Assembly (NCBI GenBank): GCA_031279825.1
Contig: JAITHT010000051.1
Span: 1-42,423, forward strand
Direction: 5' to 3'
DNA: 42,423 nt
From: Desulfovibrio sp.
GTDB taxonomy: Bacteria > Desulfobacterota > Desulfovibrionia > Desulfovibrionales > Desulfovibrionaceae
The translations under genes and the position numbers were made by a program. Below, one piece after another: positions 4,885-42,084 of this stretch. The notes under the pieces were generated by a model that worked only from the letters and a program-made list of their open reading frames with translations, was not told the origin of the DNA and did no database searches. Every line of letters begins with the position of its first letter. Position 1 is the stretch's first letter.

Positions 4885-5859
4885 ATGCGTGACAGCATGT
4901 GTGCCGTCCTGCGCGCCGCCTGCGCCGGGCGAGCCATATCCGAGAGTGAGGCGGAACGACTTCTTTCCCTGCTCCCGGGCGTATTGACGGATATTGTGGC
5001 CGTGGCGGGCGCCGCGCGCGTGGCGGGCGGCACGCGGGCATTTACCTGCGGCATCATTAACGCCAAATCCGGACGATGCGGCGAAGATTGCGCCTTTTGC
5101 GCTCAATCTCGCCACCATGATGCCGCCGCGCCCGTCTATCCGCTGGTTGATGAGGAGACTTTGCTTGAACGCGCGGAACAGCTTGCGCAATCCGGCGTCA
5201 CGTATATGGGTATAGTCACCGGCGGCGTCGGCCCGGCCGCGCGGGATTTTGAACGGATCTGCCGGGCGGCGCGGCGGATCGCGCGGGAGGTCGGCATCAA
5301 GCTTTGCGCCTCCCTCGGCCTGCTTGAGGAAGGGCAGGCGCTTGCTCTCAAACATGCCGGGTTCACCAGTTATCACCATAACCTGGAATGTGCCCGCAGT
5401 TATTACAGCCGTATTTGCACCACCCATTCGTACGAGCGGCGGAGAGAGACCGTGCAACAGGCCCGGGATGCCGGACTCAGAACGTGTACCGGGGGCATCT
5501 TCGGCTTGGGGGAGAGTTGGCGGCAACGTCTGGAACTTTCCGCCGATCTGCGGACACTGAATGTGGATTCCATTCCCGTCAATTTTCTGACTCCCATAGC
5601 CGGCACTCCTCTGGAACACGCGCCCGGCCTCCATGCCGGGGAGGCGTTGGCCCTTATCGCATTGCTCCGGCTTATGCATCCGGGTAAGGATATCCTCATC
5701 TGCGGCGGCCGCACCCGTACCCTGGGAGAGTGGGAAAACAGTCTGTTTTTTGCCGGAGCCAACGGATTGATGGTCGGCGACTATCTTACGTTGAAAGGCA
5801 ACGCCCTCGCCGATGACATGCGCATGCTGCGCACCCTTGGATTGGCGCGGGATGTCTGA
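4885..5859 (+). CDS. bioB: Biotin synthase
   Basis: Radical-SAM enzyme that inserts sulfur into dethiobiotin to form biotin, the last step of the pathway. 324 residues, the usual length. The 4Fe-4S cysteine triad is C65-x3-C69-x2-C72 within GRCGEDCAFCAQS. Other family marks are YHHNLECARSYY, CTGGIFGLGE (cysteine ligand region), PVNFLTPIAGTPL and the C-terminal ICGGRTRTL, containing the arginine that binds the 2Fe-2S cluster. The start ATG follows AAGGGG at a suitable distance. Its stop overlaps the start of the next gene (ATGTCTGA), so bioB and the bioD-bioA fusion are translationally coupled. Confidence 0.97.
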   Translation: MRDSMCAVLRAACAGRAISESEAERLLSLLPGVLTDIVAVAGAARVAGGTRAFTCGIINAKSGRCGEDCAFCAQSRHHDAAAPVYPLVDEETLLERAEQLAQSGVTYMGIVTGGVGPAARDFERICRAARRIAREVGIKLCASLGLLEEGQALALKHAGFTSYHHNLECARSYYSRICTTHSYERRRETVQQARDAGLRTCTGGIFGLGESWRQRLELSADLRTLNVDSIPVNFLTPIAGTPLEHAPGLHAGEALALIALLRLMHPGKDILICGGRTRTLGEWENSLFFAGANGLMVGDYLTLKGNALADDMRMLRTLGLARDV

Positions 5860-8029
5860 TCCGGATATCCTCTGCGTTGTCGGCACGGATACCGATGTCG
5901 GCAAAACGGTCGTCACCGCGGCTCTGACCAGGGCAGCCCGCCGTCTCGGCCTGCGTCCCCTTGCGCTCAAAGCCGTTCAGACCGGATGCGGGCGTGACGC
6001 TGCCGGTCATTTGCGCGCGCCGGATTGCGCCGTATACCGCGATGCCTGTCCCGAGGCGGAACACGCCGCGTTGATCCTGCTTGAAGACGCCTGCTCGCCG
6101 CATTTGGCCGCCGGGCGTGAAGGCGTGCGCTTGTCGGCCGGCGCCATCGCCGGAAAAATCGCGGATATGGCGCGTTCTTTGACTACCGGGCCGCTGATCA
6201 TTGAGGGCGCCGGCGGCCTGTTGACTCCCCTGAACGATACGGAAACCCTGCTGGACGCCTTTGCTCCGCTGCATGCCTCTTTCGTGCTGGTGGCCGCCAA
6301 CAGGCTGGGTATGCTCAATCATGTTTTTCTGTCCGCGGAATGTTTGCGCGCGCGCGGTCTGCGTCTTCTCGGCCTTGTCCCGACCATGCCGGAACCGGAG
6401 GAATCCGCTTTGGAACGGCGGATTCTGGCCGATAATATCGGGATTGTTTCCCGCATGGGAGGATTGCCCTGTTTAGCGGTCTTGCCGTTCATCAGAGAAC
6501 TGCGCGACCCCGATCCGGCAGTCCGTTTTCAGGGATGGGAACTGGCATCGGCAATATTTTTGAATCGCTTGGCGGCGGAGAAAAAAGAGGGTCCTTGCCT
6601 GTTGCCGTCTTTGGCCGGAAAAGAGATTCCCGCGCACTCCGCCACACCTGTGCCGAATGACTCCCGGCCTGGATTCTTGACTCCTCTTTGCACGGAAAGA
6701 GAGGTTGCCGGGCGGAAAGTCCCTTTGTCATTCTCTCGCGATGCGGCGGCTGACGCGCTGCTCCATTTTGATCGAGAGCACATTTGGCATCCTTACACCT
6801 CGGCCGTCGCGCCGTTACGGGCGCGGGAGGCGGTGAGCGTCAAGGGATCGCGCATTTATCTGCGGGGAGGCGATGTCTTGATTGACGGCATGGCATCGTG
6901 GTGGTGCGCCGTGCACGGATACAGGCATCCGGCCTTGATGCGGGCTTTGCGTGAACAGGCGGGGCATCTGCCTCATGTCATGTTCGGCGGTCTGACCCAC
7001 GAGGCCGCGGTCAGCCTGGCGCGCAAGTTGTTGTCGATCGCGCCGTCGGGTATGGATCGGGTTTTTTTTTCCGACTCCGGTTCCGTGGCTGTGGAGGTGG
7101 CTGTGAAAATGGCCGTTCAGTATCAGAGGGCGAACGGACATCCGGAGCGCTGCAAATTAATGACGGTCCGGGGCGGCTATCATGGAGATACGCTCGGGGC
7201 CATGAGCGTATGCGATCCGGAAAACGGCATGCACGCGGATTTTCGCGGCATCTTGCCGCGGCAGGTGTTCGCTCCCCGTCCTTCCTGCCGCTTTGACGCG
7301 GACTATGCCCCCGCCCCGGCCGCCGTCTTTGAGCGCCTGTTGCGTCGGCACGCCGCGAAAGTGGCCGCCGTGATCCTCGAGCCTGTTCTTCAGGGGGCGG
7401 GCGGCATGTGGATGTACCATCCGGACTATCTGCGCCGTGTCGGCGAACTGTGCCGGGAGACGGGATGCCTGTTGATCGCGGATGAAATAGCCACGGGTTT
7501 CGGCCGTACGGGCAAGATGTTCGCCTGCGAGTGGGCGGGGGTAACTCCGGACATTCTCTGTCTGGGCAAGGCGCTGACCGGCGGCGTCATGAGTCTTGCC
7601 GCCACGCTGGCAACGAAAGAGGTGGCCGAGGGCATTTCGCGGGACGGTCGGGCTTTGATGCACGGGCCGACCTTTATGGCCAACGCTCTGGCCTGCGCTG
7701 TCGCCTCGGCCAGCCTTGATTTGCTTTTATCGCGTGAGTGGGGGGAGGATGTGGCGCGCATAGCAAGGGCCTTGCGGCGCGGGCTTGAGCCGTGCGGAGA
7801 GTTGCCGGATGTGGCGGACGCGCGGGTGCTGGGGGCTGTCGGCGTATTGGAAATGCGCCGTCCGGTAGCGGTGGAAAAACTCCAGGACTACTTCGTCCGG
7901 CGCGGGGTATGGTTGCGGCCCTTCGGCCGTCTGATTTACGTCATGCCGCCCTATGTCATGGAGGACGATGATCTTGAACGGCTCACCCATGCCATGCGCG
8001 GCGCGGTGGAGGAGCGGGCGTGGGAATAA
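5852..8029 (+). CDS. bioD-bioA: Fused dethiobiotin synthetase / adenosylmethionine-8-amino-7-oxononanoate aminotransferase
   Basis: One 725-residue polypeptide carries two consecutive steps. Residues 1 to about 225 are BioD (ATP-dependent ring closure to dethiobiotin) with P-loop GTDTDVGKT from about residue 11, LKAVQTGC and IEGAGGLLTPL. From about residue 305 the protein is BioA, a fold-type I PLP aminotransferase, with HIWHPYTS, ASWWCAVHGY, DSGSVAVEVA, ADEIATGFGRTG and the PLP lysine K573 in LCLGKALTGG. The two are joined by about 70 residues of non-conserved linker. The start ATG at 5852 overlaps the bioB stop; an upstream in-frame start at 5813 would lie inside bioB and is rejected. BioD-before-BioA fusions are known in plants and a minority of bacteria. 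No bioF, bioC or bioH is nearby. Confidence 0.95.
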   Translation: MSDPDILCVVGTDTDVGKTVVTAALTRAARRLGLRPLALKAVQTGCGRDAAGHLRAPDCAVYRDACPEAEHAALILLEDACSPHLAAGREGVRLSAGAIAGKIADMARSLTTGPLIIEGAGGLLTPLNDTETLLDAFAPLHASFVLVAANRLGMLNHVFLSAECLRARGLRLLGLVPTMPEPEESALERRILADNIGIVSRMGGLPCLAVLPFIRELRDPDPAVRFQGWELASAIFLNRLAAEKKEGPCLLPSLAGKEIPAHSATPVPNDSRPGFLTPLCTEREVAGRKVPLSFSRDAAADALLHFDREHIWHPYTSAVAPLRAREAVSVKGSRIYLRGGDVLIDGMASWWCAVHGYRHPALMRALREQAGHLPHVMFGGLTHEAAVSLARKLLSIAPSGMDRVFFSDSGSVAVEVAVKMAVQYQRANGHPERCKLMTVRGGYHGDTLGAMSVCDPENGMHADFRGILPRQVFAPRPSCRFDADYAPAPAAVFERLLRRHAAKVAAVILEPVLQGAGGMWMYHPDYLRRVGELCRETGCLLIADEIATGFGRTGKMFACEWAGVTPDILCLGKALTGGVMSLAATLATKEVAEGISRDGRALMHGPTFMANALACAVASASLDLLLSREWGEDVARIARALRRGLEPCGELPDVADARVLGAVGVLEMRRPVAVEKLQDYFVRRGVWLRPFGRLIYVMPPYVMEDDDLERLTHAMRGAVEERAWE
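6657..6733. repeat. Possible palindromic element inside the bioD-bioA linker
   Basis: The linker DNA is bounded by an inverted repeat, GAATGAC at 6657-6663 and GTCATTC at 6727-6733. Inside lie GGCCTGGATTC and an imperfect hairpin CCTCTTT...AAAGAGAGG. These words resemble the common GTCATTCC/GGAATCCAGG class of intergenic palindromes. This suggests that a small repeat was captured in frame and now forms part of the linker. This is inference from short words. Confidence 0.35.
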
Positions 8030-11198: not shown

Positions 11199-11744
11199 TT
11201 ACCGCCATGCTCTGGATGTGCAGTCCCGGAGTGAACCGGTTTGGATAGATAGTAAATCTTTTCGGATAGAGAGTATGTCGCGTCTTGTCAGTATCCTTTG
11301 GTTCGCGCTTCCCCTATGGAGTATTTCCAAATCGCGCAGCGCTTCTACATATGGGCCGTCAATAAGCAGGTCGGCTTGCTCCAGCAGAGCGTTAACGGAG
11401 TCATGCTCTTTCGCCCTGCCGTGCAGTTGCTCAAGTGTATACCCTGTATACACGACAACCGTTTTGTCGAGAGCGCGGACACGGCTTCCCAGGTCAGCCA
11501 GAATCGCTGCCTGCAAAAAAGGCTCGCCTCCGGAAAAGGTGACTCCTGCGAGCAGCGGATTCTCCTGAATTTGCGCCAGCAGCTTTTCCGTACTGACCGT
11601 GTGTCCGCCGCATGGGTCATGCGTTTCCGGATTATGGCATCCGGGACAGTGGTGCGGGCAGCCTTGCGTAAACACGGTGAAGCGCAGACCCGGCCCGTCA
11701 ACTACAGACTCTTCGACAATGCCGTTGACGCGCAGTTCAGACAC
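11199..11744 (-). CDS. nrdG: Anaerobic ribonucleotide reductase activating protein
   Basis: Radical-SAM activase that uses a 4Fe-4S cluster and SAM to install the glycyl radical on class III ribonucleotide reductase. 181 residues from a GTG start. The cluster motif is C29-x3-C33-x2-C36 (GCPHHCPGC), and FSGGEPFLQ supplies the SAM-binding GGEP. The start GTG overlaps the stop of the small upstream ORF (GTGTCTGA), which fixes the start and implies coupling. An upstream extension to 11840 is possible in frame but lacks similarity. Last gene of the nrdD operon. The C-terminus (SLRDCTSRAWR) is unlike the family and may be drifting. Confidence 0.93.
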   Translation of the reverse strand: MSELRVNGIVEESVVDGPGLRFTVFTQGCPHHCPGCHNPETHDPCGGHTVSTEKLLAQIQENPLLAGVTFSGGEPFLQAAILADLGSRVRALDKTVVVYTGYTLEQLHGRAKEHDSVNALLEQADLLIDGPYVEALRDLEILHRGSANQRILTRRDILSIRKDLLSIQTGSLRDCTSRAWR

Positions 11745-11919
11745 CGTGTCTGACCCGGTCGCGTTCTTCGGCACGCTTGGCGTTGTTGAAACGGTCGAGC
11801 GTGCCCACAAGGTATCCGGTAATCCTCCTGGTGCGTTCAAAGCCCTGTCCCTGACCGATCATCTCCATTTGGGGGGCCGCATGCGTTCTTTTCCTGCCGT
11901 GTTGCGTATCAAGCAGCAT
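11737..11919 (-). CDS. Separate glycyl-radical C-terminal domain of class III ribonucleotide reductase
   Basis: A 60-residue protein whose second half, FERTRRITGYLVGTLDRFNN followed by AKRAEERDRVRHG, matches the extreme C-terminus of one-piece NrdD enzymes. In E. coli the corresponding RRVCGYLG loop carries the glycyl radical; here the candidate radical glycine is G35 in RITGYL. The neighbouring nrdD ends just before this domain. The ORF has its own ATG and a strong AGGAGAGGAAGG ribosome site, begins 37 bases after the nrdD stop, and overlaps nrdG by 8 bases. The N-terminal 26 residues have no visible match. It probably docks on NrdD, much as YfiD serves pyruvate formate-lyase. Identification of the domain is firm; function in trans is inference. 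Confidence 0.85.
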   Translation of the reverse strand: MLLDTQHGRKRTHAAPQMEMIGQGQGFERTRRITGYLVGTLDRFNNAKRAEERDRVRHGV

Positions 11920-11956
11920 CCTTCCTCTCCTGTACGTAAATGTGAAATTGCTCTTG

Positions 11957-14209
11957 TTATCTCTGAAACGGAACGTCGTGAAATTTCTTTTTCAGTTCCC
12001 GCAGGGCATCGACGCTTATGCCTTCGCCTTCCCGCCGTCCGCAACGCGGGCAGACATCGCCTATGGTGCCGACATACCCGCAAATCGGATCACGATCCAG
12101 AGGATGGTTGACGGAGCCGTACCCGACGCCTTGCTCATGCATATAACGAATAACGGACTCAAAGGCTTGGGGGTTTTTACCGGTGTCTCCGTCAAGTTCC
12201 ACATAGGTTATATGCCCTGCGTTGGTCATGGCGTGGTATGGCGCTTCCAGCCGGATTTTGCGAAAGGCCGGAATCGGGAAATTCACAGGCACATGGAAGG
12301 AATTGGTGTAGTATTCCTTATCCGTAATGCCTTCGAGCGTGCCGTATCTCTGGCGGTCCATAGCCGTGAAGCGCCCGGACAGGCCTTCCGCCGGGGTTGC
12401 GATAAGCGAGAAGTTCAAGCCCGTTTCTGCGGATTTTTCATCGCACCGCTTCCGCATGTGCCCTATGATCCTTAATCCCAGTTCCTGGGCTTCGGCGGAT
12501 TCTCCATGGTGTTTGCCGCCAAGCGCCTTCAGTGTCTCGGCAAGGCCGATGAAGCCCACGGTCAATGTACCGTGTTTGAGTACTTCCTCAATGGAGTCCT
12601 TCCAATCCAGGCTTTTTGAATCCAGCCAGATGCCCTCGCCCATCAGGAAGGGGTAGTTATAGACCTTTTTGGAACCCTGGATTTTAAAGCGGTGCAACAA
12701 TTGGCGGAAGACCAGATCAATACGTTCGTCAAGCAAGGTGAAGAAAGAGGCGATGTCTCCCTTAGCCTCAATGCCGAGACGAGGCAGGTTGACGGTGGTG
12801 AAGCTCAGGTTGCCGCGTCCGCAAGTAACCTGGCGTTCAGGATCATGCACGTTTCCGATAACGCGGGTGCGGCAGCCCATATAGGCGACTTCGGAATTAT
12901 AGTCACCCGCGCGGTAATATTGCGCATTGAAGGGGGCGTCCAAAAAACTGAAATTCGGAAACAGGCGTTTGGCCGATGTTTCCATGGCCAGCTTGAACAG
13001 GTCGTAATTGGGGTCTTCCGGATTGAAGCTGACGCCGGATTTTACCTTGAAGATCTGCACCGGGAAAATGGAGGTTTCCCCGCTGCCCAGTCCGGCCTTG
13101 GTTGCCAGAAGAAGGTTTTTGACTACCATGCGCCCTTCGGGCGAAGTGTCCGTGCCATAGTTGATGGAACTGAACGGCACCTGCGCTCCGGCTCTGGAAT
13201 TCATGGTGTTAAGGTTATGGATAAAGGCTTCCATGGCCTGATAGGTACGTCTGTCCGTGGCGCCGGTCGCCTTCAGCGCGGCATGGGCGTGCGCTTTGGC
13301 GATGAGCGGTTTCAAATCGTCGTCGGCGGCGAGCAACTCTTTTTCGTAAGCGTCCAGGGTTCCGAGGCCGGGTTTGCTCCTAACTTTGGACTGAATCCCG
13401 GCTGCCAACTCCGCCGCGCCCGTTTCGTCCAAATCGTTTTTGACCTGTATATACGACGCCAGGGCGGAGGCGTATTCCTTACGGAACGTTTTAGCGACTC
13501 CCCGCGCCATTGCGTAGTCAAAATGAGGCACACTCTGGCCGCCGTGCATTTCATTCTGGTTAGCCTGGATGGCTATGCAGCCGAGGGCCGAATAGCTTTC
13601 TATGGAGTTCGGCTCCCGAAGATGTCCGTGTCCCGTGGAAAAACCATTTTGAAAAAGCTGAATCAGATCGATTTGGCAGCAGGTTTCCGTAAGCATGTAA
13701 AAATCTTTGTCATGGATGTGTATGTCGCCGTTGCTATGCGCGGCTGAAGCGTCTTTGGGAAGAATATAGTTATCTATAAAAAATTTCGAACCCTCCGAAC
13801 CATATTTGAGCATGGTCCCCATGGCGGTATCGCCGTCAATGTTGGCGTTTTCTCTTTTGATGTCCTCTTCCACGGCCGCCGACCACGTCAGCTTTTTGTA
13901 GATGTCCATCAAATACGTTTCGGCGTTGCGGATTTTATTGTGCTCCGCGCGATAGAGAATATAGGCCTTGGCTGTTTTGGCGTAGCCGAAGCGAATAAGC
14001 GCCTCTTCGACGACGTCTTGAATTTCTTCAACATGTTCAAGACCACGTTCGTTCAACTGTTTACAGACTTTTTCGGTGACGAAAAGCAGATCTGTCGGCG
14101 TCATTTCTTCATCGCCCACAGCCTTGTTCGCTTTGGAAACGGCGTTGAGTATCTTGGTGGAGTCAAACGAAAGGGTTTTCCCGTCTCTTTTTATGACCTG
14201 CTTGGGCAT
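11957..14209 (-). CDS. nrdD: Anaerobic ribonucleoside-triphosphate reductase, catalytic chain lacking the glycyl radical loop
   Basis: Class III ribonucleotide reductase that makes dNTPs from NTPs without oxygen. About 750 residues from ATG 14209. Residues 1 to about 95 form an ATP-cone allosteric domain (MPKQVIKRDGKTLSF). The central barrel has DIHIHDKDFYMLTETCCQID, ALGCIAIQANQNEMHGGQSV, and PFSSINYGTD. The C-terminal zinc ribbon has ICGYVGTIGD then VCPRCGRREGEG. In usual enzymes the ribbon runs straight into the radical loop (GFERIRRITGYL style). Here it is followed by 18 other residues and a TAA, and the loop is in the next ORF. The start was placed at Met 14209, before which only GAGAAG is seen; upstream in-frame sequence is riboswitch/terminator. 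It is preceded by a cobalamin riboswitch. Confidence 0.95.
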   Translation of the reverse strand: MPKQVIKRDGKTLSFDSTKILNAVSKANKAVGDEEMTPTDLLFVTEKVCKQLNERGLEHVEEIQDVVEEALIRFGYAKTAKAYILYRAEHNKIRNAETYLMDIYKKLTWSAAVEEDIKRENANIDGDTAMGTMLKYGSEGSKFFIDNYILPKDASAAHSNGDIHIHDKDFYMLTETCCQIDLIQLFQNGFSTGHGHLREPNSIESYSALGCIAIQANQNEMHGGQSVPHFDYAMARGVAKTFRKEYASALASYIQVKNDLDETGAAELAAGIQSKVRSKPGLGTLDAYEKELLAADDDLKPLIAKAHAHAALKATGATDRRTYQAMEAFIHNLNTMNSRAGAQVPFSSINYGTDTSPEGRMVVKNLLLATKAGLGSGETSIFPVQIFKVKSGVSFNPEDPNYDLFKLAMETSAKRLFPNFSFLDAPFNAQYYRAGDYNSEVAYMGCRTRVIGNVHDPERQVTCGRGNLSFTTVNLPRLGIEAKGDIASFFTLLDERIDLVFRQLLHRFKIQGSKKVYNYPFLMGEGIWLDSKSLDWKDSIEEVLKHGTLTVGFIGLAETLKALGGKHHGESAEAQELGLRIIGHMRKRCDEKSAETGLNFSLIATPAEGLSGRFTAMDRQRYGTLEGITDKEYYTNSFHVPVNFPIPAFRKIRLEAPYHAMTNAGHITYVELDGDTGKNPQAFESVIRYMHEQGVGYGSVNHPLDRDPICGYVGTIGDVCPRCGRREGEGISVDALRELKKKFHDVPFQR

Positions 14210-14756: not shown

Positions 14757-14789
14757 CTACCTGTCTGTAAATTTTGACTTTTTCATCAG
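14757..14789 (-). pseudogene. Truncated transposase start (IS3 OrfA-like), nine codons
   Basis: On the minus strand the head of repeat copy C gives a ribosome site AAAGGAAG, then ATG and the codons MKKSKFTDR before TAG. MKKSKFT is the usual beginning of IS3-family OrfA proteins. The text then continues with GGTAGTGTCC, a transposon-end-like word, so the coding sequence seems to have been cut by another element. The identification rests on seven residues. Confidence 0.45.
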
Positions 14790-14873
14790 AACTTCCTTTG
14801 TGGTCTGAAACACCGGCCTTCATGCCGGATATAGCCCCGACCCCGCCCTGAAGGGCGGGGTTTCTTTCCGGGG
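14784..14873 (+). repeat. Family 1 structured repeat, copy C (3'-truncated)
   Basis: Contains the head (CATCAGAACTTCCTTTGTGG onward), a hairpin CCGGC-CTTCAT-GCCGG in place of the GGCC-GAAA-GGCC of other copies, and the terminator-like stem CCCCGCCC-TGAA-GGGCGGGG-TTTCTTT. It stops after CCGGGG; the 12-bp and 9-bp hairpins and the tail are absent. The changed first hairpin keeps pairing. Confidence 0.9.
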
Positions 14874-16281: not shown

Positions 16282-16297
16282 AAATGTGCTCCATGTT

Positions 16298-16464
16298 CAT
16301 CAGAACTTCCTTTGTGGTCTGGGACTCCTGCCGAAAGGCCATATAGCCCCGACCCCGCCCAGAAGGGCGGGGTTTCTTTCCGGGGCGGAAGCTTGGGAGG
16401 GGTTGGGACCCCACCCAAGCGCGAGACGCGAAGCCCTGAAGGGCTTCGCTACCTCATTTGGATG
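16298..16464 (+). repeat. Family 1 structured repeat, copy D (full length)
   Basis: A full copy of about 167 bp. Order: head with TTCCTTTGTGGTCTG; GCC-GAAA-GGC hairpin; outer GCCCCG/CGGGGC stem enclosing CCCCGCCC-AGAA-GGGCGGGG with TTTCTTT; 12-bp stem with one mismatch (CCCCACCC); 9-bp stem with TGAA loop; tail CTACCTCATTTGGATG. It differs from copy E mainly in loops. Its head points into the 5' leader of the HU gene. Confidence 0.93.
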
Positions 16465-30668: not shown

Positions 30669-30734
30669 ATGTGGAACAGGGACACGGCATTGTGCAATCG
30701 AATTTCTGACACCGAATTGGGGAGGATGCAATGA
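30669..30734 (+). CDS. Possible 21-codon leader ORF before the LplT-Aas fusion
   Basis: ATG at 30669 preceded by GAGG nine bases upstream; the peptide MWNRDTALCNRISDTELGRM ends in Q. Its TGA overlaps the ATG of the next gene by the classic ATGA. This would couple translation of the fusion gene to the leader. No similarity is recognised, and the region could be simple noncoding leader. Confidence 0.3.
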   Translation: MWNRDTALCNRISDTELGRMQ

Positions 30735-33700
30735 ACAGGGACAGCGAAAAAAATGAAACGACCTCTTCGGGCGCCGCCCTTGTGGCCGGTATGGGAAGTT
30801 GTTACGCACTGGGCACCTTTACGGACAATTTTTACAAACAGGCGGCCGTTCTGCTGGCGGCGGGCACGCAGGCGGGTTCGATGCAAAGTGTCGCCACCGT
30901 GCTCTTTTCCCTGCCGTTCATCGTGTTTTCCGCCTGGGCCGGCTGGCTGGCCGACCGCATGGTCAAAAAGCACATCGTGGTAGCGGCTAAAAGTATGGAA
31001 CTGGCGGCTATGGCCGTCGGCGGCTTCATGCTGGTGCAAGGGAACTGGGCGGGCATCCTGGCCGTGATTTTTTGTATGGGCGCTCAATCCACCATGTTCA
31101 GCCCGGCACTCAACGGCTCCATTCCGGAAAGCTTTCCGGCCGCGCGGGTCCCCCGGGTGAACGCTTTGATCAAATCGGCGTCAACCGGGGCCGTTCTGGC
31201 CGGCATGGCCCTGGCCGGGGTCTTTCTCGATCTTACTCCCGAGCATTTGGGGGGCTTTCTCTCTTTTTACGATCCGTCCGCGGATGCGGGCGATCCCTCC
31301 TCCGTTCCCGTTTACGGCCGGATCATCGCTTCCATCTTTATCGTCGGCATCGCCGTTCTCGGCCTGTTGACGGCCTTCAGCCTGCGCAGACCGCCCGAGA
31401 ACGCCGCCAAAAAAGTTTCCCCGCCCTTTCCCTGGAGCGGTCCGCTGGATTCCGTGCGCCACGCCCTGGAATGCCGCGGCGATCCTTCCCTGTTCCTGGT
31501 TTTGCTGGCGGAAGCGTGGTTTTACGGCATCGCGGCCGTGGCCGTCATCAGCATAGCCAATCTTGCCGTTGGTCTCGGTTACGGGAACACCGTCGCCGGC
31601 ATGATCACGGCCGTTCTGATGATCGGCATCGCCGCCGGCTCTTTGATTGCCGGCAAAAAACACGCGGAAAGCTGGCGGGGGCTTCTGCTGCCCTCGGCTA
31701 TGGGCGTGGGGATTTTCCTGGCCTTGACCGGCCTTGCGCCTTATATGCCCGTCTCCGTGGACCTGTGGAACCTCAATCCGCAACTGTGCTGGATTTTCGC
31801 CTGCCAGGCCCTGTGCGGGTTATGCGGCGGCATCTACCTCATCCCCCTGGCAAGCTATATCCAGGTACGACCGGCCGCCCATGAAAAAGGCCGTGTTCTG
31901 GGAGTCTCCAACTTCATGAGTTTCTCGGCCATGGCCCTGTTCGGCGCGGCATTTTACTGCATCAGCGCGCTGCCCCCGCCTCTGACCTTTGCCGTCTACG
32001 GGCTGTCCACCCTGGCGGTCGCCCGGTTTTTCGCCCGCAATCGCCTGCGTCGCCTGCAAGGCGCGAGTATGAGAGAGGCCGCTTCCTCTCCTCTGGCATG
32101 GCTGCTGCGCGGCCTGCTGGCTTTACGCTATACCGTGACGGAACGCGGACTGGAGGCCATCGCCGTTACGCACGATTCCCGACATCCCGAATCCACCGCC
32201 GACTCCACAGGAAATTCCGACAAAGCCTCCGTTCCCGGCATCCTTTTTCTCCCCAACCATCCGGCCTTGGTTGATCCCGTCATCCTCTATTCCCGCCTGG
32301 CCGGGCTCAAGCCCCGCCCCCTGGCCGACCAACGCCGGATGCGCGGTTTTTTGCCGGGTCTGGCGGCCAGATTTCTCCAGGTCATCATCATACCGGATCT
32401 GCAAAAAGAGGGTAAAGCCGGGGCCGCCGAGGCCGCCGCTTCCCTTGAGAGCGTTATCGCCGCCCTCCGGCAGGGGGACAACGTGCTGCTGTATCCGTCC
32501 GGACGAATATATCGCTCCGCCCGGGAATCCCTGGGAGCCAACTCGGCCGTCAGCCGTATTCTGGCCGCAATACCCGATGTGCGGGTCGTCCTCGCGCGCA
32601 CCTCCGGACTTTGGGGAAGTTCTTTCAGCCATGCCGCGGGGACGGCGCCGGACTTCACCCGCCAATTGTTGCGCGGCCTGATGACCATTCTGTCCAATCT
32701 CATGTTTTTCACCCCGCGCAGAGCTGTCGCCCTCGAATTCGCCGAACCCGGCGATCTGCCTCGGGACGGCGACAAAATGCGGCTGAACAGCTACCTGGAA
32801 GCCTTTTACAACCGGGAGGAACTCCCGGCCGTGGCCGTGCCCCGCCGGTTTTGGCAAGATGCCGCTCCCCTGCCCGCGCCCGATCAAGCCCGCGCGTCCA
32901 CCCCTTCTCCTGCCGCCGTTCCTGACGATGTGCGCCGGACGGTATACCGCCTGATCCGGGAATGCTCCGATCTTCCCCGGGATCAGCCACTCTCGGGGGA
33001 AGATTCCCTGACTGCGGATGCGCACATGGACAGCCTTGCCCTGGCCGAACTGGCCGCGGCCCTGGAATGCGAATTCGGCCGCCCCGTGCCAAACCTGGAA
33101 TCCCTTGTCACTGTGGAGGACTGCCTGCTCGCGGCCATGGGCGAGTCGCGCGCCGGGGATGCCGGCGGCGCGGAAAACGCCGTTCCGGCCGCATGGTTCG
33201 CTCCGGCTGATTCGTCGGAAGCCTCCCGTCCCCTTGTTCCGGTGAAGACGGCGAACACCGTTGTCGAAGCCTTTCTCGCTCTGGCGCGGCAATATCCCTC
33301 CTTCCCCATGCTGGCGGATCGCGCGGGGCAACGCTCCCGCCGCCAGGTTCTTGTCGGAGTCCTTGCCCTCTCCCGCCGCTTTCGCCGGTTGCCTGAAAAA
33401 CGTCTGGGCATCATGCTGCCCGCCGTCCCCGCGGCCGTGATCGTCTGGCTGGCCGCCTTTCTGGCCGGCAAGGAACCGGTTATGCTTAACTGGACCGTGG
33501 GGCCGCGCAATATGCGCCACTGCATCGCCGCTACCGGCATCCGTCGGGCCCTGACCTCCTCGCTGCTCCTGGATCAGCTCCGCCGCACCGGCAATCCCAT
33601 CGCGGACACGGATGTGGAATGGCTCCCCGTCGAAAATCTGGCCGCCGGGCTGAGTCTTTGGAACAAATCGGCGGCGGCGGCGCGGGCCGCCCTGCACTGC

Positions 33701-34840
33701 CTCGGCCTGTTTCCCATCCGCGCGCGCCATACTTCGGACATCGCGGCCGTTCTTTTCACGTCCGGTTCCGAATCCAATCCCAAGGCCGTTCCCCTCAGCC
33801 ACCGCAACATCATGGCCAACGCCGGCGACATTCTTGCCGTTCTGCGGGTGCGGGGCCGGGATTGCCTGCTGGCCATGCTGCCGCCGTTCCATTCCTTCGG
33901 TCTTATGGCGGGGCTGGCGTTGCCCGCCATCGCCGGCCTGCGCGCGGTCTATCATCCCAACCCCACGGAGAGCCTGCCGCTGCTCGATCTCGCGCGTCGC
34001 TACAAAATAACCCTTCTCGGCGCCACGCCGACCTTTCTTGACGCCATGATCAGCCGCGCCGGCAGCGCCGGTGATTTGGCATCTCTCCGCTTTGCCTTTG
34101 TCGGCGCGGAAAAATGCCCGGAACGGATTTACAAGGCCTTCGCGGCCTGCTGCCCGGACGCGGCCCTGTGCGAAGGCTACGGAATAACCGAATGCTCGCC
34201 CGTTATTTCCATCAACAGTCCGGACGACATCGTGCCCGGCAGTATCGGTTTTCCTCTTCCTTCCGTTCACACGGCGGTCGTTGTGGAAGAAGAAGACGCC
34301 CAGGGCCGCGTCGTTCCCCTGCGCCGCGCCCAAGCCGGCGAGGCGGGGATGCTCCTTGTGCGCGGCAAAAGCGTCTTTTCCGGCTATATCGGCGACGCTC
34401 CGGATCCCTTTGTCGGGTTTGAGGGCGAGCGATGGTACCGCACCGGAGATATTATCGCTCAGGACGCCTCGGGACGCCTTGTCTTCAAGGGCCGTCTCAA
34501 GCGCTTCGTCAAGCTTGGGGGAGAAATGCTCTCCCTGCCGCAAATGGAGGAAATTCTGCAAAACGCCCTTAAAAGCCGTCCCGATCTGCCTGAAGACGAT
34601 ACGCCCTTTATAGCCGTTGAAGCCGGGGCGGACAGCGAAGACGGCGGGCAGACCGAAATTTTCGCCTTTTCCACCCTACCCCTCGCCGTCCACGAGGTGA
34701 ACCGGATGTTCAGGGACGCCGGGCTTGCCTCCATTTACGCCGTCAAACGCGTTATCCGCGTGCCTGAAATCCCCCTTCTCGGCAGCGGTAAAACCGACTA
34801 CCGCGCATTGCAGGCGTTGGGGCGGCTTTCCACGGACTAA
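30731..34840 (+). CDS. Four-domain lysophospholipid transporter / acyltransferase / acyl carrier / acyl-ACP synthetase fusion (LplT-Aas type)
   Basis: 1369 residues. Residues about 15-435 are a 12-helix MFS transporter like LplT, the lysophospholipid flippase (SCYALGTFTDNFYKQAAVLL, MGAQSTMFSPALNGSIPE). About 495-690 is a PlsC acyltransferase with the NHPALVDP motif (N509) and LYPSGRIYRS near 588. About 730-795 resembles an acyl carrier protein, with MDSLALAEL placing the likely phosphopantetheine serine at 768. About 830-1369 is an AMP-forming acyl synthetase: FTSGSESNPKAVPLSHRN (near 1007), EGYGITECSPVIS (near 1147), WYRTGDI (near 1235) and LKRFVKLGGEMLSL. In E. coli LplT and Aas are separate, and Aas lacks its own ACP. 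Together they import, activate and reacylate lysophospholipid. GGGAGG precedes the ATG. Confidence 0.93.
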   Translation: MNRDSEKNETTSSGAALVAGMGSCYALGTFTDNFYKQAAVLLAAGTQAGSMQSVATVLFSLPFIVFSAWAGWLADRMVKKHIVVAAKSMELAAMAVGGFMLVQGNWAGILAVIFCMGAQSTMFSPALNGSIPESFPAARVPRVNALIKSASTGAVLAGMALAGVFLDLTPEHLGGFLSFYDPSADAGDPSSVPVYGRIIASIFIVGIAVLGLLTAFSLRRPPENAAKKVSPPFPWSGPLDSVRHALECRGDPSLFLVLLAEAWFYGIAAVAVISIANLAVGLGYGNTVAGMITAVLMIGIAAGSLIAGKKHAESWRGLLLPSAMGVGIFLALTGLAPYMPVSVDLWNLNPQLCWIFACQALCGLCGGIYLIPLASYIQVRPAAHEKGRVLGVSNFMSFSAMALFGAAFYCISALPPPLTFAVYGLSTLAVARFFARNRLRRLQGASMREAASSPLAWLLRGLLALRYTVTERGLEAIAVTHDSRHPESTADSTGNSDKASVPGILFLPNHPALVDPVILYSRLAGLKPRPLADQRRMRGFLPGLAARFLQVIIIPDLQKEGKAGAAEAAASLESVIAALRQGDNVLLYPSGRIYRSARESLGANSAVSRILAAIPDVRVVLARTSGLWGSSFSHAAGTAPDFTRQLLRGLMTILSNLMFFTPRRAVALEFAEPGDLPRDGDKMRLNSYLEAFYNREELPAVAVPRRFWQDAAPLPAPDQARASTPSPAAVPDDVRRTVYRLIRECSDLPRDQPLSGEDSLTADAHMDSLALAELAAALECEFGRPVPNLESLVTVEDCLLAAMGESRAGDAGGAENAVPAAWFAPADSSEASRPLVPVKTANTVVEAFLALARQYPSFPMLADRAGQRSRRQVLVGVLALSRRFRRLPEKRLGIMLPAVPAAVIVWLAAFLAGKEPVMLNWTVGPRNMRHCIAATGIRRALTSSLLLDQLRRTGNPIADTDVEWLPVENLAAGLSLWNKSAAAARAALHCLGLFPIRARHTSDIAAVLFTSGSESNPKAVPLSHRNIMANAGDILAVLRVRGRDCLLAMLPPFHSFGLMAGLALPAIAGLRAVYHPNPTESLPLLDLARRYKITLLGATPTFLDAMISRAGSAGDLASLRFAFVGAEKCPERIYKAFAACCPDAALCEGYGITECSPVISINSPDDIVPGSIGFPLPSVHTAVVVEEEDAQGRVVPLRRAQAGEAGMLLVRGKSVFSGYIGDAPDPFVGFEGERWYRTGDIIAQDASGRLVFKGRLKRFVKLGGEMLSLPQMEEILQNALKSRPDLPEDDTPFIAVEAGADSEDGGQTEIFAFSTLPLAVHEVNRMFRDAGLASIYAVKRVIRVPEIPLLGSGKTDYRALQALGRLSTD

Positions 34841-41689: not shown

Positions 41690-41911
41690 TGAAAAGAAGC
41701 AGCGCGACCCTGAGATGTGCCGGACCAAAAAGGGCAACCGGTATTACTTCGGCATGAAGAGTCACATTGGGGTTGACGCGGGCGGCGGCTATGCGCGCAG
41801 CCTGGAAACCACTGCCGCCAATGTCCGCGACATCACGATAACTTCCCGCCTCATTCGTGAAGATGACACGGTGGTGTATGCTGATGCGGGCTATCCCGGC
41901 ATCGAAAAACG
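41690..41911 (+). pseudogene. IS5-family transposase fragment
   Basis: 74 codons with the DDE-transposase text RDPEMCRTKKGNRYYFGMKS then HIGVDA, ATTAANVRDITITSRLI and DTVVYADAGYPGIEKREG. The N-terminal half is missing, and the C-terminus is cut at about 41911, where it passes into another protein. It begins four bases after the DedA stop without a start codon of its own. A relic. Confidence 0.85.
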
Positions 41912-42084
41912 CGAAGGGATCGCCTTGAAGCGCCGGGGCCGCTTGAGGACTACATCAAGCGGCAACAGGGACTTATCACGAAAAAGATACCCGGCTATAC
42001 GGAACTGTCCCGCAAGCCCGTGTCCGTTGGCGAAACAGGCCTTGAAGCCGTGACGATGGAGGTCCGCCTCAAGCAGGACGGCTA
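41912..42084 (+). pseudogene. DUF1795/DcrB-like (EagR-type) fragment
   Basis: One frame reads RRDRLEAPGPLEDYIKRQQG, then LITKKIPGYTELSRKPVSVG and ETGLEAVTMEVRLKQDGYT. This fits the C-terminal half of the DUF1795 fold (ISRDRL...LEEYI.RQ...LPGY...). In type VI secretion loci such small proteins (EagR) are chaperones encoded just before RHS effectors, and an RHS fragment indeed follows directly. The 5' half is replaced by the IS fragment. The match is by eye, so moderate. Confidence 0.6.

Follow-up and report, generated by a model that had tools for sequence, protein, structure and literature searches.

The window analysed here, a stretch of 42,423 nucleotides from a Desulfovibrio sp. (assembly GCA_031279825.1, contig JAITHT010000051.1), encodes on its minus strand a class III ribonucleotide reductase (RNR), NrdD, whose glycyl radical loop is carried by a separate small protein. 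We propose with good confidence, on the strength of sequence comparison, that the two products would form a class III reductase of two chains, in which the radical subunit can be exchanged. The split, its conservation, the unlinked position of core and loop genes in some genomes and the phage copies with no core in the same record all emerge from the comparison of genomes. The nrdD core chain (14209..11957, minus strand as for all features of this locus; 750 amino acids followed by TAA) comprises an ATP-cone, the catalytic barrel, the finger-loop cysteine and a zinc ribbon, and the radical loop is absent from this chain. A spacer of 37 bases (11956..11920) with an AGGAG-type ribosome site leads to the ATG (11919) of a small open reading frame (ORF; 11737..11919), the 60-residue product of which (FERTRRITGYLVGTLDRFNNAKRAEERDRVRH) bears the loop with the predicted radical glycine, Gly35 (codon 11815..11817). 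It is followed by nrdG (11199..11744), encoding the radical S-adenosylmethionine activase (match to TIGR02491 NrdG above cut-off), whose likely start, chosen by eye, is the GTG at 11744, in an 8-base overlap with the small ORF up to its stop. Owing to the spacer, the frame of the small ORF differs from that of NrdD, and reading it upstream meets a stop with no continuation of the NrdD end. These coordinates, and the division of one Pfam family over the two ORFs, bear out a preliminary description of this DNA, according to which NrdD ends after its zinc ribbon and the loop lies in a distinct ORF of 60 residues with its own ribosome site.

The large ORF matches positions 1-531 of Pfam NRDD (E 3.2e-185), as well as the ATP-cone family, and the small ORF positions 532-562 (E 1.6e-7), the two jointly covering 1-562 of the model. 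NCBIfam PRK07111 is likewise divided, the large ORF matching 3-715 and the small one 709-744. The sole other Pfam family listed for the small protein is unrelated and falls below its own cut-off; PF01228, the Gly_radical family of the pyruvate formate-lyase (PFL) type, is not among its Pfam matches. No family of its own was found in Pfam, NCBIfam or PHROGs, its matches being the ends of NrdD models. When 16 separate small proteins were combined into a profile and compared with PDB sequences at E values up to 1, exactly one match was returned, residues 708-739 of the chain of Prevotella copri NrdD (8p23). The core aligns to the same chain as far as residue 705; the cut is therefore situated between the zinc site and the radical loop and, by this alignment, falls inside the domain named the glycyl radical domain in PMC11226230 (here and below, statements from cited papers refer to the accessible parts of these papers). 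Gly35 pairs with residue 715 of chain 8p23_A, which, given the 4 additional residues of the chain relative to the numbering in PMC11226230, is presumably the radical Gly711 of that paper.

The finger-loop cysteine of the core, Cys446 (codon 12872..12874), lies in an MGCRT motif (M444-G445-C446-R447-T448) that is invariant in 37 aligned split cores, MGCR being the finger-loop motif (PMC9669993). The zinc ribbon (12041..12082) has three cysteines (CGY...CPRC; Cys710, Cys720 and Cys723), all invariant in the same 37 cores, with an aspartate at the place of the fourth cysteine of some relatives; by analogy with P. copri NrdD (PMC11226230), it would be expected to bind zinc. An AlphaFold2 model of the core (predicted local distance difference test, pLDDT, 83.8; predicted TM-score, pTM, 0.79), the 13 best matches of which in the PDB (Foldseek) are all P. 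copri class III RNR chains, indicates that the class III fold is kept. After the ribbon, the core ends in a C-terminal tail (11960..12034) for which the pattern GEx[ILV]xx[EKD] could be defined; it is common in split cores (73 of 93 distinct split-type tails, absent from the other 20) and unseen in one-piece relatives (0 of 16 fused tails). A conserved docking helix in this tail was considered and dropped, as the model is without a helix there and of low confidence, and the sequence pattern alone is claimed.

The split is common among close relatives. A core with a separate small piece occurs in 10 of the 15 genomes of the genus, and a one-piece gene in the remaining 5. In a second genus of the family, complete cores ending at profile position 531 were found in 57 of 79 genomes and partial cores with the same end in 5 more, which brings the total to 62; of the rest, 8 have a one-piece gene only, 2 have just a small piece, 2 contain partial cores that are unclear, and 5 yielded nothing. 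One genome of this genus (G201) combines a split core with a full-length NrdD match, and one or more further matches are listed for 61 of the 62 split-core genomes, all but G234. Both genera taken together, 72 of 94 genomes share this core end, and an NrdD match was obtained in 191 of the 199 genomes of the family sample. Across the split genomes, core and loop are encoded by separate ORFs that are conserved together, a trait comparable to NrdJab (see below).

The arrangement of the two pieces is variable. Over 86 split loci, the frame offsets are distributed as 37, 28 and 21, and the distance from the core stop to the small domain ranges from 41 to 1483 bases. Since frame and spacing vary freely, frameshifting does not account for these pairs; the preliminary description had already set aside a simple point frameshift. 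Eight loci fetched from the second genus have a core with no adjacent small piece. In five of them (L061, L062, L065, L068 and L076) the nrdG match starts no more than about 30 bases from where the core ends; L063 has it about 290 bases away, and in L072 and L075 no nrdG is in reach. In the genomes of these eight loci, small genes are present on other contigs, except in G234 (L072), where none was found. Such unlinked core and loop genes would fit two working chains. A re-fusion of split pairs was withdrawn as an interpretation: several pairs appeared as one open frame, yet a TAA stands between the ORFs in L078 (G254), the sole pair read directly.

The loop itself is under constraint. Position 35 is a glycine in all 201 aligned loci (23/23 adjacent, 12/12 prophage-type, 6/6 other stand-alone Desulfovibrio-type, 80/80 viral and 80/80 named-genome loci, fused ones included), in a survey that is not independent, all loci having been picked by similarity to the loop. 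The survey was repeated in this form, by an alignment not requiring the glycine, because an earlier pattern had demanded it. The ratio of nonsynonymous to synonymous differences (pN/pS) lies between 0.07 and 0.15 in five groups, indicating purifying selection on the loop, although these values are rough, pS being uncorrected and the synonymous sites near saturation. The pattern used for pN/pS, fitted by 75 of the 80 viral and 79 of the 80 named loci, itself required the glycine.

The split is also seen in Clostridia, in Fibrobacter and in other phyla. Outside the two Desulfovibrio-type genera, counts represent similarity-ranked matches to the small protein and not natural frequencies, and the Bacillota are unevenly sampled. 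The named-genome loci were found with the small-protein profile and ranked by similarity, the best 80 being kept, so that at least 80 exist; 57 of these have a core and a separate small ORF, 14 are fused, and in the other 9 the locus shows no core. The record titles name, among others, Desulfovibrio, Lachnospiraceae, Oscillospiraceae, Butyricicoccus, Fibrobacter succinogenes and Anaerobiospirillum. When 48 named split genomes were searched whole, 23 were without any other NrdD and 25 had another (a few of them partial or weak). An Anaerobiospirillum metagenome-assembled genome (G351, the genome of L236) contains three separate loop pieces, one of which lies beside an NrdD core.

In a tree of 149 cores, built by a quick method, a second Desulfovibrionaceae subfamily with 34 one-piece genes, among them the 5 of the genus, is placed far from the gene of the window. 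The latter belongs to a group of 53 rows that includes Clostridia and consists of 43 split genes, 8 whose small gene is elsewhere or was not found, 1 core only and 1 fused gene. One-piece homologues, which the preliminary description would have read as a sign of recent decay, therefore do exist in 5 of the 15 genomes; since they sit in a distant subfamily, the split gene is not a recent decay product of them. The placement would fit the acquisition of an already split gene rather than local decay. A single origin of the split was rejected by an approximately unbiased (AU) test against one clade (p 5e-41) on a quick tree of 68 hand-chosen rows, from which the distant one-piece subfamily, core-only, unlabelled and three long-branch rows, and many near-copies were omitted. 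The split or fused label changes 7 times on this tree (5 forced) and 12 times on the 149-row tree (at least 8 forced), numbers that would speak to repeated gain or loss but not to exact counts.

Several genomes of the second genus carry extra small genes away from nrdD, and 19 of these neighbourhoods were read; a further, twentieth region proved to contain no small piece. A PHROGs scan of 10 neighbour proteins from 7 loci detected transposition, terminase or connector families in L083, L086, L091, L093, L098 and L099, and an unnamed phage family for a neighbour in L085. Judged by eye only, L084, L087, L088, L089 and L095 are phage-like; also by eye, L090, L092, L094, L096, L097 and L100 look chromosomal. 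A profile search of IMG/VR yielded 395 relatives; the records of the best 80, ranked by their likeness to the loop, were kept and searched whole: 69 contain the loop only, 10 a loop-less core with a separate loop and 1 a one-piece gene, many of these records being fragments in which a core may be out of view. Annotated phage records gave 15 matches to the small protein of the window, some of them inside one-piece nrdD genes. In Eggerthella phage EL753P1 (L265), the annotated nrdD product stops after the zinc ribbon, and a loop-like stretch with no obvious in-frame start is found just downstream (5935-6081). On one viral contig (L121, 12120-14682), the NrdD core itself consists of two ORFs, with the loop protein separate on the other strand.

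Longer stand-alone proteins, of about 90-100 amino acids and extended by an N-terminal domain, occur in L258, L229, L235 and L244, loci that look chromosomal by eye; this longer type also partners cores in viral contigs L154, L160, L161 and L163. Two genomes, G361 and G362, each possess two one-piece NrdDs plus a stand-alone copy, that of G362 being L258. We regard the L258 kind as the best candidate for a true repair part. An idea about one-piece host genomes without extra copies was dropped as too weak, with 8 genomes.

With respect to mechanism, we hypothesise that the core receives the small chain at its zinc-ribbon end, the RITGYL loop of the small chain entering the barrel beside the finger-loop cysteine. 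The radical would be set on Gly35 by NrdG with S-adenosylmethionine, and catalysis would then proceed as in one-piece NrdD. Oxygen cleaves NrdD at the glycine (PMC12288474); the split would thus confine the damage to a cheap and replaceable part of 60 amino acids, if oxygen cleavage and the repair described for PFL (PMC8683613) may be applied by analogy to a two-chain enzyme. A loop part of this kind could in turn be encoded by a small gene that is mobile, present in several copies and alone on phages. Rather tentatively, at somewhat less than an even chance, we suggest that phages without a reductase of their own bring only the loop, which host NrdG would charge and the host core take up to produce deoxyribonucleoside triphosphates (dNTPs), and that some bacteria with one-piece enzymes keep the longer stand-alone version for repair.

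Several points weigh against a two-chain reductase. The place where the small chain docks on the core is a guess, because only single chains were modelled and the tail is a low-confidence part of the core model. The roughness of the pN/pS values has been mentioned. In G242, the small ORF adjacent to the core (L064) is degraded. The small piece was not found in G234, which has a core, nor the core in G208 and G212, which have a small piece, possibly through assembly gaps. Finally, a class I/II-type RNR large subunit is encoded on another contig of the genome from which the window comes (G000:C27:6773-8188), and nrdD might be dispensable there.

Among the alternatives, the one that fares best, which we nevertheless consider unlikely, at about one chance in a few, is that the small protein serves chiefly to repair oxygen-cleaved NrdD, in the way YfiD serves PFL, the core being active only once re-armed. 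The extra stand-alone copies far from nrdD are in line with such a role, as are G361 and G362 with their one-piece enzymes and the added N-terminal domain of L258 and the three loci like it. However, the core of the window and of other split genomes is without the loop, so that these enzymes would depend on the small chain from the outset, and a repair role overlaps with the two-chain reductase rather than excluding it. The prevalence of loop proteins without a core in the sampled viral records, many of them fragments, might alternatively suggest that the phage copies are decoys or dominant inhibitors of the host reductase, or act on NrdG. We consider this improbable: the glycine and its surroundings are kept under purifying selection in the phage copies, a radical glycine is not obviously needed by an inhibitor, and phages would presumably gain from more dNTPs.

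Decay or frameshifting of nrdD, by recent mutation or as a pseudogene in a cell relying on another RNR, is very improbable. The other RNR of the genome and the degraded small ORF of L064 would be compatible with it, but it is opposed by the core end shared in most genomes of the two genera, the split in other phyla, the variable frames, the low pN/pS and the many invariant core residues, and G242 itself carries two more small pieces on other contigs. A search of the whole assembly, about 83% complete, recovered these two NrdD pieces and no other NrdD; the check for a second complete nrdD recommended in the preliminary description was thus negative in this assembly, the missing part of which could hold one. 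Least credible of all is a joining of the ORFs into a one-chain NrdD by ribosomal frameshifting, an intron or a split intein, for, although phage nrdD genes broken by introns and intein-like insertions are on record (PMC12363816), frame offset and distance vary freely, core and small gene lie on different contigs in several genomes, and the small ORF, after a spacer of only 37 bases, possesses a start and ribosome site of its own.

Other features of the window are on the plus strand or intergenic. A DDE transposase fragment (41700-42053, plus strand) lies close to the contig end, and an ORF of 1369 amino acids (30731-34840, plus strand) joins an MFS transporter part to an AMP-binding enzyme part. 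Another, of 738 amino acids (5813-8029, plus strand), contains an AAA_26 part and a class III aminotransferase part in one chain, which we take to be BioD-like and BioA-like respectively, the ORF directly upstream being presumably bioB-like. An intergenic element of about 90 bases is present in two copies (14782-14873 and 16296-16385), each ending in a GC-rich, hairpin-like stretch.

The proposed enzyme can be compared with several known systems. With the one-piece NrdDs of P. copri (8p23) and phage T4 (1h78) it shares the ATP-cone, barrel, finger-loop cysteine, zinc ribbon and nrdG partner, together with the sequence of the radical loop, which was matched to P. copri only; it differs in having the loop on a separate polypeptide and a core that continues past the zinc ribbon into a tail of its own. 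YfiD/GrcA and T4 Y06I are also stand-alone glycyl radical domains, one of them phage-encoded, in principle able to replace a damaged C-terminus (PMC8683613). They copy the C-terminus of PFL and back up an enzyme with its own loop (PMC8683613), whereas the small protein described here belongs to the NRDD family and its core is loop-less; the assembly of the genome (about 83% complete) yielded no one-piece NrdD that it could back up. Spare parts have been shown biochemically for PFL only (PMC8683613). The two-chain reductase, or a replaceable radical subunit like YfiD, put forward in the preliminary description gains support from the widespread conserved split and the unlinked genes, and the survey of related genomes that it called for showed the split to be common in both genera; the likeness to YfiD is strengthened by the extra stand-alone copies in prophages and viral contigs.

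Among RNRs of other classes, NrdJa/NrdJb of Pseudomonas aeruginosa similarly consists of two polypeptides, both of them needed, but is a class II, B12-dependent enzyme in which NrdJb, rather than being a radical domain, is responsible for dithiol exchange (PMC4520616); it has been called a unique split RNR in a free-living organism (PMC4520616). The split NrdA of phage Aeh1 is an RNR large subunit in two assembling chains, but of class I (PMC3267527). Aeh1 NrdA and NrdJab are the only split RNRs named in the accessible part of PMC3267527, and the class III reductase is described as NrdD plus NrdG (PMC4009431, PMC3267527). No description of a split class III reductase or of an NrdD spare part was found in the accessible portions of the open-access literature searched, within which we take the two-chain class III form to be undescribed.

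A two-chain form would let the radical domain be added, removed or swapped, and would make the installation of the radical, the docking and the damage by oxygen separable for study. For glycyl radical enzymes beyond PFL, the existence of spare parts has been posed as an open question (PMC8683613), which these genes open to direct testing. The phage copies suggest that host dNTP synthesis could be influenced by very small means. If the proposal is true, the shared exchangeable loop would constitute the first spare-part system for ribonucleotide reductase.

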